From Phyllobacterium bourgognense (GTDB lineage Bacteria; Pseudomonadota; Alphaproteobacteria; Rhizobiales; Rhizobiaceae): DNA of 64,000 nt. Below the pieces are notes generated by a model. That model saw only the letters and a list, made by a program, of their open reading frames with translations, searched no databases and was not told the origin of the DNA. Location: positions 62,001 to 126,000 of the forward strand of contig NZ_QPJM01000006.1 in NCBI RefSeq assembly GCF_003337575.1, given 5' to 3'. The translations under genes and the position numbers were made by a program. Below are positions 37,559 through 40,599 of the stretch, piece after piece; the stretch's first letter is position 1; every line of letters starts with the position of its first letter.

Positions 37559-37584
37559 GAGCGGATTTCTGTTGGCAAGACTGC

Positions 37585-37717
37585 TGCGCGTGGTTCGACG
37601 GAGCTCACCATGAGGGAGTTGGGTTGATTGCATGAGCAGGTCCGCAGAGGTTGGCACTCGTCGGCAGCTGCAGTGTCCTAAACCTCCCTCATGGTGAGCC
37701 CCGTCGAACCACGCACA
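37585..37717. repeat. Inverted repeat of the GTGGTTCGAC...CACCATGAGGG family
   Basis: A 34 bp arm at 37585-37618 (starting TGCGCGTGGTTCGAC) pairs with 37684-37717 with two mismatches, around a 65 bp spacer. A near-identical pair with perfect 33 bp arms lies at 63729-63855. It follows the fuconate dehydratase gene and may also terminate that transcript. Confidence 0.85.
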
Positions 37718-37820
37718 ATGGCTTTGTGACACGGAATTGCACCGTGTCGTCTTGCGTAAATGCGATGTCGTTTCCGCGCCTATTCTTTTGTTCTGCCGAG
37801 TGCTCTTATCAAGACACTTG

Positions 37821-38170
37821 AGGTGCCGCTTTCCAGGGAGAGAGCGGAGAATTGGGAAGCCGGTCAGGAATGCAAATCCGGACCATGGCGGCCTGCAAAT
37901 GATGCTTTTCTGCGCTTCCTGTGCTTATGGACTTTATGTCCAGTTCGCTCCGGTTCTCGAAAAGCACCATTTTCGGCTCGCCCTGGTTCCAAATTTGTCC
38001 ACATCCTCAACCCGGCGCTGCCCCCGCAACGGTAGTGGAGTGGAAAACGCGGCAAAAACGGCCACTGGGGAGTGCACCCCGGGAAGGCGTCGCGAAGCCC
38101 GAAAAGGCAACTCCAGAGCCCGGAAACCAGCCTCGAGTGACAAAACCGACTGATCGCGGTGGGCGATCAA
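37821..38170 (+). promoter_or_regulatory. Cobalamin riboswitch (with an insertion in its P5/L5 hairpin)
   Basis: Landmarks of the cobalamin aptamer appear in order: GGTGCC (37822), GGGAA (37854-37858), P5 arm GCCGG (37859-37863), P5 partner CCGGC (38012-38016), GCTGCCCCCGCAACGGTA (38017-38034), GCCACTGGG (38061-38069), CCGGGAAGGCG (38079-38089) and the B12 box AGCCCGGAAACCAGCC (38117-38132). The P5 arms are separated by 148 nt instead of the usual few, because a palindromic element lies between them. The riboswitch is on the strand of, and about 100 bp before, the Rieske oxygenase gene, which it would control. Confidence 0.87.
37864..38011. repeat. Palindromic element copy F, inside the riboswitch P5 hairpin
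   Basis: The core GCTTTTCTGCGCTTCC...CTCCGGTTCTCGAAAAGCACC matches the core of copies A-E. Flanking arms around CAAATCCGGACCATGG (from 37873) pair imperfectly with CCTGGTTCCAAATTTG (ending 37997). The exact ends are uncertain. CCGG occurs at 37878-37881 and again at 38012-38015, so a target duplication is possible. Confidence 0.75.
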
Positions 38171-38266
38171 GGAGCATGATTTTGTGCAGGCGACGTTTGA
38201 CTTGCGCGGAGGTCCTCCTTCACCACCAGTCAGTTCTTTCGCGGGCTATAAGAGCGAGGACACGAC

Positions 38267-39508
38267 ATGGACTTAACGAACGAACTGCTCCGGAATCTCA
38301 GGAACCGGAAACCAGGATACGGCCTCGAACAGGCCTTCTATTCCGATCCGGATTATTACCGTCTCGACATGGAGAATATTTTCTATCGCGATTGGCTGTT
38401 CATCGGCCATGATTGCGAGGTGGCCAAGCCGGGCAACTATTTCACGGTTCAGATTGGCGACTATCCGGTCGTCATCGTGCGCGACCGCCAAAAACAGATC
38501 AGAGCTTTCCACAATTCGTGCCGCCATCGCGGCTCGCGCGTTTGTGCCGCCGAAAGGGGCACCGCGGCGAAACTCGTCTGTCCCTATCATCAATGGACCT
38601 ACGAGCTGGATGGCCGCTTGCTGTTCGCGCGCCAGATGGGCGACGATTTTGACGCCAGCCAGCATAGCCTCAAAACGGTGCATTGCGAGAGTGTCGGCGG
38701 CTATATCTTCATTTGTCTCGCGCCCGTTGCTCCCGATTTCGGCCCGACACGCGCTCTGCTTGAACCCTATCTCGCGCCGCATCGCCTGACCGAGACCAAG
38801 GTGGCATTCCAGAGTTCGATTGTCGAAAAAGGCAACTGGAAGCTCGTCTGGGAAAACAATCGCGAATGCTACCACTGCGTCGCCAACCACCCGGAACTGT
38901 GCAAGACCTTCCCCGAAGCGCCCAGCGCTACCGGGATCCAGGACTCCAAAGAAGATCCTGAGATGGTCGCGCATTGGGAGAAGTGCGAGGCAGTCGGCCT
39001 CCCAAGTGTGTTCCGTATCGCAGAAGACGGCCAGTATCGTGCCACACGTGTGCCGCTGCTTAGTAGTGCCGAGAGCTACACGATCAGCGGCAAGCGTGCG
39101 GTCGGGAGGCAACTCAGTGATGACGTCAACGCGCAGCAGATCGGTTCGCTGCTGCTCTATCATTACCCGACCACGTGGAACCATGTTCTCGGCGACCAGG
39201 CGATTTCTTTCCGCGTGCTTCCGCTCGGACCGAATGAGACCGAGGTCACGACGAAGTGGCTCGTCCACAAGGACGCGGTCGAAGGTGTCGATTACAATCT
39301 CGAAGAACTGACCCATGTCTGGCTCGAGACCAACAATCAGGACCGCCGTATCGTTGAAGAAAATGCATTCGGTATCCGCTCGCCTGCCTATGAACCGGGT
39401 CCATACTCGGTCGAACACGAAGGTGGCGTGCTGCAGTTCCTCGAATGGTACAGCAATTCCATGGAAACAAGGCTTTCCGGCAATAACAAGCTCAGCAAGG
39501 TAGCATGA
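38267..39508 (+). CDS. Rieske non-heme iron oxygenase, alpha subunit (betaine demethylase-like)
   Basis: The 413-residue protein has a Rieske cluster CRHRGS...CPYHQW (Cys85, His87, Cys105, His108). The mononuclear iron site is in ENNRECYHCVANHPEL (His203, His208), with an Asp downstream. The ECYHC context resembles glycine betaine monooxygenase and stachydrine (proline betaine) demethylase rather than aromatic dioxygenases. It would oxidatively remove an N-methyl group as formaldehyde. Its reductase is encoded next, overlapping by ATGA. Control by the upstream cobalamin riboswitch is predicted. The substrate is uncertain. Confidence 0.88.
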   Translation: MDLTNELLRNLRNRKPGYGLEQAFYSDPDYYRLDMENIFYRDWLFIGHDCEVAKPGNYFTVQIGDYPVVIVRDRQKQIRAFHNSCRHRGSRVCAAERGTAAKLVCPYHQWTYELDGRLLFARQMGDDFDASQHSLKTVHCESVGGYIFICLAPVAPDFGPTRALLEPYLAPHRLTETKVAFQSSIVEKGNWKLVWENNRECYHCVANHPELCKTFPEAPSATGIQDSKEDPEMVAHWEKCEAVGLPSVFRIAEDGQYRATRVPLLSSAESYTISGKRAVGRQLSDDVNAQQIGSLLLYHYPTTWNHVLGDQAISFRVLPLGPNETEVTTKWLVHKDAVEGVDYNLEELTHVWLETNNQDRRIVEENAFGIRSPAYEPGPYSVEHEGGVLQFLEWYSNSMETRLSGNNKLSKVA

Positions 39509-40599
39509 TGAATATGACGCTTCCTCAGACCTATCCGCACCTCGATCAGATGCAGCCATGGAATGATCGGCTGCATCTGCTGGAGTGCCTATCGGTCATC
39601 GAGGAAGCGCCCAATGTGAAGACTTTCACGTTCAAATCGGACAATCAGAACTGGTTTCGCTACGAGCCAGGCCAGTTCATGACGTTCGAATTGCCGGTGC
39701 AGCCGGAAGCCGTCTTGCGCACATTTACATTGTCATCCAGCCCATCGCGGCCATTCACCATTGCCGTGACGGCGAAAGCCCAGGATGGCAGTATCGGTGC
39801 GCGGTGGATGCTCGACCATCTGACGCCGGGTGCGCGGTTGAAGGCATTCGGGCCGCTTGGCGATTTCTCCATGCGCAAGCATCCGGGCGAGAAATACCTG
39901 TTCATCTCGGCGGGTTCGGGCATCACGCCGATGATGTCGATGACGCGCTGGATGCACGATTGCGCCCCGCAAAGCGACATCAATTTCGTGACCTGCGCAC
40001 GCCGACCGAGCGACATTATCTTCCGTAGAGAGCTCGAATATCTAACAAGCTGCATGCCGAACCTGAAGCTTGCCTTCCTTATAAAGGAACACGAGATGGG
40101 GCAGGTGTGGACCGGTATTCGCGGCCGTTTTGAAGAGGCACGGTTGCCGTTGCTTTCGCCGGACTTCAAGGACAGGACGATCTTCTGTTGCGGGCCTGAA
40201 ACGTTCATGCGCGATGTGCGCACCATGCTCGAAGCTGCCGGCTTCGACATGACGCATTACCACCAGGAGAGTTTCGGACCGGCCGCCGAACCGGTGCTGC
40301 CGATGATGGACGCGATATCGACAGAGGCCGTTGAGAGATCCGCGATGGTCAGCTTTTCCATGTCGGGTATGGAGGTGCCATGTGCGCCAGGCGAAACGAT
40401 TCTGAAGGCCGCTCGCGGTGCGGGGATACGTATTGCGGCAGCGTGTGAATCGGGGCTCTGCGGCACCTGCAAGGTCATGAAGATTTCCGGCGAGGTCGAC
40501 ATGGACCACAATGGCGGGATTCTGGACGACGAAATCGACGAGGGATACGTCCTCGCTTGTTGTTCCAAGCCGCTTGGTAACGTTGAGGTCGAGGCCTAG
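39505..40599 (+). CDS. Ferredoxin reductase of the Rieske oxygenase (FAD/NAD plus 2Fe-2S)
   Basis: The 364-residue protein has an FAD domain (YEPGQFMTFELPV, LRTFTLSSSP), an NAD domain (YLFISAGSGITPMMSM) and a C-terminal plant-type ferredoxin domain with CESGLCGTCK plus the later Cys in LACCSKPLG. This domain order is that of GbcB/Stc4-like electron-transfer partners of N-demethylating Rieske oxygenases. The start overlaps the oxygenase stop codon. The stop overlaps the convergent mocF-like gene by four bases (CTAG). Confidence 0.9.
   Translation: MMNMTLPQTYPHLDQMQPWNDRLHLLECLSVIEEAPNVKTFTFKSDNQNWFRYEPGQFMTFELPVQPEAVLRTFTLSSSPSRPFTIAVTAKAQDGSIGARWMLDHLTPGARLKAFGPLGDFSMRKHPGEKYLFISAGSGITPMMSMTRWMHDCAPQSDINFVTCARRPSDIIFRRELEYLTSCMPNLKLAFLIKEHEMGQVWTGIRGRFEEARLPLLSPDFKDRTIFCCGPETFMRDVRTMLEAAGFDMTHYHQESFGPAAEPVLPMMDAISTEAVERSAMVSFSMSGMEVPCAPGETILKAARGAGIRIAAACESGLCGTCKVMKISGEVDMDHNGGILDDEIDEGYVLACCSKPLGNVEVEA

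Follow-up and report, generated by a model that had tools for sequence, protein, structure and literature searches.

The cobalamin riboswitch that lies 5′ of gbcAB-like genes in Phyllobacterium bourgognense holds, in the loop read here as L4, a copy of a palindromic repeat family with a modal length of 142 bp; cobalamin binding and the L5–L13 kissing contact most likely both still work. The DNA analysed, hereafter the window, comprises 64,000 nt of assembly GCF_003337575.1 (NZ_QPJM01000006.1, positions 62,001–126,000, forward strand). Coordinates below are those of the window, and the riboswitch and gene features all lie on its plus strand.

A palindrome within a cobalamin riboswitch

The window was scanned with cmscan at the Rfam gathering thresholds. 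RF00174 was the sole Rfam match in the 64 kb and covers model positions 1–189; its score of 93.0 bits is well above the gathering score, 31.5. This covariance search had been proposed with the original prediction and gave its match despite the large insertion; the extra bases were aligned as an insertion at the GCCGG/CCGGC site. The aptamer, including the insert, spans 37804–38149. As predicted, 148 nt (37864–38011) lie exactly between the 5′ strand GCCGG (37859–37863) and the 3′ strand CCGGC (38012–38016), which pair with a probability of 0.82–0.97 in the window aptamer.

Two genes follow the aptamer. The best NCBIfam models for both are the glycine betaine monooxygenase subunits, GbcA (513.3 bits, cut-off 670) for a Rieske oxygenase gene at 38267–39508 and GbcB (385.5 bits, cut-off 500) for a reductase gene at 39505–40599; both scores fall below the curated cut-offs, and the genes are accordingly called GbcA-like and GbcB-like. 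A candidate ribosome binding site, GAGGA (38256–38260), is read from the sequence 6 nt 5′ of the ATG. The segment CCACCAGTCAGT (38223–38234) is invariant in the 20 same-genus leaders and, by eye, complementary to parts of 38149–38162, which makes it a possible competitor of P13. Folded as a single unit, the whole leader is weakly more stable than shuffled sequences (z −1.9; 4 of 100 shuffles as low), and a promoter scan of the leader returned no sigma-70-type site. Among 80 loci kept from named genomes, of which Phyllobacterium myrsinacearum is closest (85% protein identity, the rest at most 75%), the P5 motif was found upstream of the genes in 54 and was missing under a strict pattern in 26, and gbcAB-like genes with a cobalamin riboswitch 5′ of them occur in many Hyphomicrobiales. 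A second palindromic repeat lies at 37580–37722, between the upstream gene and the riboswitch; its 34-nt arms are 94% complementary, and it has 108 matches in its own genome, many of them partial and many counted on both strands.

The insert folds back on itself, as had been proposed: its predicted fold reaches −52.9 kcal/mol, shuffled versions average −34.9 (z −4.9), and none of 200 shuffles was as low. Its DNA has at least 40 matches in the same genome (40 of 125 candidates were scored), 30 of which align as one family. Matches are present in 15 of 19 genus genomes, five of which hold at least 40 each. The family ends are GGGTSTGTYGATATTCA; this end pattern occurs at 26 + 18 sites in the genome, and a reversed control at 0 + 0. 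Thirty-two distinct elements bounded by terminal inverted repeats (TIRs) were taken from the own genome and a few relatives, and their modal length is 142 bp (17 of 32 at 142 nt). The element proper in the window matches the family in length and ends, measures 140 nt (37867–38006) and has TCA on each flank. Copies residing in this riboswitch in the three genomes that bear one (the window, G013 and G006) are 140, 141 and 139 nt long and are thus full length; their flanks are TCA on both sides in the window and G013, and TCA and TAA in G006.

An autonomous relative was sought through the 44 end sites. Thirty of these were examined as loci, and 22 had a partner end at 119–137 nt. Ten open frames beside six of the seven end loci of the own genome that lack a near partner gave no match to transposase models; one of the ten matched Phage_integrase. 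The insert appears to be a full-length, mobile-type palindrome, a non-autonomous MITE-like element, and transposition is the presumed mechanism by which it entered the loop. The original description of the locus, an intergenic palindromic repeat grafted into a cobalamin riboswitch, is borne out by the covariance score, by the copies elsewhere in the genome and by the lack of the insert in most orthologs.

The interrupted hairpin

Passages of PMC10907184 describe a four-way junction formed by P3–P6, in which L4 touches L6 through a T-loop contact that organises the junction. They also describe a kiss of L5 with L13, whose key feature is a bulge of one or two nucleotides. Those of PMC10653944 give UCCCG as the L5 consensus, and those of PMC9600662 describe the P6 accessory region as highly variable. 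When these descriptions are compared with the structure line of RF00174, the hairpin after GGGAA, closed by GCCGG/CCGGC, reads as P4/L4, and the next hairpin, the C-rich GC-UGCCCCC-GC (38017–38027), as P5/L5. On the RF00174 alignment and the L5 consensus in PMC10653944, the true P5–L5 (GC-TGCCCCC-GC in the DNA, L5 TGCCCCC at 38019–38025) is intact in the window.

The loop partner of L5 is also retained. P13–L13 (TGATCG-CGGTGGG-CGATCA, 38151–38169; L13 at 38157–38163) was delineated from ortholog conservation and paired changes in the stem. L13 CGGTGGG can pair with the CCCCC of L5, leaving one base bulged. The wider ortholog set contained 105 loci, and the 77 with a P5 motif were parsed for L13; all 77 have CGGNGGG (CGGTGGG in 55, CGGCGGG or CGGAGGG in 22), and the sole variable base is the bulged one. 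In 19 distinct segments of the P13 stem, 93.9% of the cells are paired, a value reached by none of 500 shuffles; neither were the eight cells changed on both sides nor the covariation score of 0.472 (each 0 of 500). Two other measures, double-change pairs and pair types, were no higher than in shuffles. In 7 of the 19 segments the outermost pair does not form.

The original prediction had placed the graft in P5/L5, where it might change or abolish the L5–L13 kiss. Its one point of support is that it takes the interrupted hairpin for P5. By the passages of PMC10653944 and PMC10907184, together with the RF00174 structure line, L4 is the T-loop and L5 the C-rich loop of UCCCG type. Neither this C-rich loop nor the CGGNGGG loop that pairs with it is disrupted, and this placement, with the change or loss of the L13 contact attached to it, was rejected as very improbable. 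The kiss is expected to be intact in the window, with no sign of its loss, because the interrupted hairpin is P4/L4, L5 is intact and L13 is conserved. A further suggestion, that P5 is closed by CCGG at 37878–37881 with the insert left outside, was rejected as well; in the three bearer aptamers this closure is less stable than GCCGG/CCGGC by 9.9, 11.8 and 17.9 kcal/mol.

In the predicted folds of the three bearers, P4 pairs form with a probability of 0.82–0.997, and the mean probability that an insert base pairs outside the insert is 0.001–0.003. The element stem leaves UC on its 5′ side and CAAC (window, G013) or AAAC (G006) on its 3′ side, and UC and CAAC resemble short L4 loops. Minimum-energy predictions ignore ligand and pseudoknots. 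The minimum-energy folds of the bearers are without P5, so they do not amount to a model of the whole aptamer.

Orthologs with and without the element

The same-genus set comprised 20 orthologous Rieske-gene loci, the window's own genome included. All 20 have an RF00174 match, spanning 195–234 nt in 17 and 336–346 nt in the three bearers. The comparison of orthologs that the original prediction had called for thus found 17 of 20 empty sites, and the insert is not universal in the genus. L4 is 7–9 nt long in 15 of the 17 non-bearers. It is 20 nt long in L038, where UC and CAAC flank a small hairpin as they flank the element in the window, and 41 nt long in L046 (genome G012). The L046 loop contains GGTGAAATCCGG, which itself resembles a small P4–L4; the loop was considered as a relic of the element, and a 25-nt piece of it occurs once in the G012 genome.

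The aptamer core offers no indication of the broken switch that had been raised as one outcome. The 121 core columns (L4 excluded) that are invariant in the 17 non-bearers deviate at four places in the bearers (1, 0 and 3). All 1140 triples of the 20 sequences give a mean of 3.0 deviations and 37.7% reach four, in a test that is weak, with three sequences and 121 columns. The core of the three bearers thus appears to carry no excess change. Between the window and G006, identity is 88% in the insert, 84.9% in the coding sequence and 87.4% in the upstream stretch, and 95.3 and 92.6% in the aptamer flanks and 95.5% in the leader. On these figures the core is conserved, and the insert diverges about as fast as the DNA around it.

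In a tree of coding and downstream DNA, the three bearers fall within a well-supported six-member clade, interspersed with the three members that do not have the element. Two changes of the insert are required on this tree, and 0% of 200 bootstrap trees need only one; a single origin is compatible with the well-supported branches taken alone. Either the insert was lost, or recombination replaced it, or it arose here repeatedly; given this mixture, loss or replacement may be frequent.

The patchy distribution would also be expected if the stem in L4 weakened the L4–L6 contact, so that cobalamin binding suffered, gbcAB were mostly unregulated and the element were a slightly harmful passenger that is lost or replaced. 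Half of the clade (3 of 6 members) is without the element, and by RF00174 score the bearers take the bottom three places among the 20 (96.2, 93.0 and 85.7 bits). A long insertion by itself lowers a covariance-model bit score. Against an impaired switch stand the aptamer core without excess change, the retention of P13, L13 and the leader, the persistence of the element while the coding sequence diverged to the identity given above, and the fact that L4 hairpins are common. We regard such impairment as unlikely.

The arms of the element raise another prospect, that it has been taken into service: its arms would have been remodelled at this site so that they fit L4 and adjust the switch, or it would add a new signal such as a nuclease or protein site. 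The outer arms of the resident copies are the least like the family (0.52–0.58 and 0.54 identity), yet match each other at 0.61–0.67, the low end of the 0.62–0.92 of 29 other copies. Each of the three bearers has a single occurrence of the 3′ arm variant, which was not found in the other 16 of 19 genomes, and a different repeat fills the same loop elsewhere (L055, below). The 29 comparison copies were picked by their consensus-like ends, so the contrast between arms is biased, and adaptation in place, conversion of one arm by the other and a subfamily that went unseen would each explain the divergence. Co-option of the element seems decidedly improbable.

The reading preferred here is a working switch with an extended P4. 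A non-autonomous element of about 142 bp would have entered L4 of the riboswitch in a Phyllobacterium-type lineage. L4, the T-loop, often has an extra hairpin in this class, and the element is flanked by the U-C that opens the loop and by the A-rich stretch that ends it. Since it folds on itself, it would act in the RNA as a long extension of P4, and the T-loop and the L4–L6 contact would tolerate its stem. P3, P4, P5–L5, the P6 side and the downstream P13–L13 all remain, so that cobalamin binding and the kiss most likely still work, and the kiss should control gbcA expression, presumably by repression. The switch with its graft is probably still functional, because the insert apparently lies at a spot where the class can take an extra hairpin.

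L4 as a host loop and relation to known systems

In the 54 named loci with a P5 motif, L4 is 7 nt long in 49 and 8 nt in one, and four contain short hairpins (L123, L139, L144 and L152). A second riboswitch of the own genome (L061) and many in the family have an L4 of 20–28 nt that holds a hairpin; in the wider list of L4 lengths, L068 and L221 were left out as mis-parsed, and L063 and L083 duplicate L031 and L041. Ten more distant or paralogous loci (L051–L060) gave an RF00174 match in three. In one ortholog from another genus, L055 in G033 (positions 1160–1237), a different repeat makes up the L4 of 75 nt; a 78-nt query for this repeat gave 22 matches in G033, the query itself included and the other 21 partial. 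Two different repeat families thus occupy the same loop of orthologous switches. A 47-nt, A+T-rich L4 was observed in L224 (G069), in a riboswitch spanning 275 nt.

The possibility that large L4 grafts are common was also considered. Among 106 RF00174 matches in the 20 genus genomes, spans above 300 nt occur in three, each of them at this locus. Forty-six family genomes (42 with a match, under stricter filters) yielded ten matches above 300 nt besides the window; when aligned, all ten have their extra length on the P6 side and an L4 of about 23–28 nt, so large L4 grafts look rare. Loci L216 and L218–L223, cobalamin riboswitches of the family, span about 364–398 nt and owe their added length to the P6 side, where the fits are often poor.

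A broader proposal is that mobile palindromes land repeatedly in L4 of cobalamin riboswitches: the loop would tolerate them, and they would then be improved on the spot into P4 extensions by which the L4–L6 contact is tuned. We hold this to be rather unlikely; if it were true, the orthologous switches of two genera described here, with their two unrelated repeat families, would be its first cases. A literature search found no account of a palindromic element, MITE, REP or insertion sequence in a riboswitch, which is weak evidence that such a case is unpublished, as subscription papers were thinly covered.

The locus is a natural test of the size of addition that the core of a riboswitch can accommodate. 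Close relatives that have or lack the insert, together with the unrelated repeat that fills this loop in another genus, provide the comparison for the effect of a 140-nt graft in the L4 T-loop on cobalamin binding and switching, and a working switch would show a route by which mobile palindromes enter regulatory RNA without destroying it.

Like MITEs, the element is short and palindromic, occurs in many copies with well-defined inverted ends, often has TA at its flanks and has no apparent gene of its own. It differs from them in that TA, present 5′ of 18 and 3′ of 12 of the 32 TIR-bounded elements, stands on both sides of only five, and in that no autonomous partner was found among the end loci examined in its own genome. 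RIME is an intergenic palindromic repeat type of rhizobia. The window element is likewise a repeated intergenic palindrome in the same bacterial order, and the L055 insert may resemble the RIME-type palindromes of rhizobia too. With the cobalamin riboswitches of RF00174, the window RNA shares a full-length match and the expected order of P4, P5–L5 and downstream P13–L13. It differs from them in an L4 of 148 nt, where other parsed L4 loops hold at most 47 nt, except for the 75 nt of L055. The graft is a variant of a known riboswitch class, for which natural controls exist.
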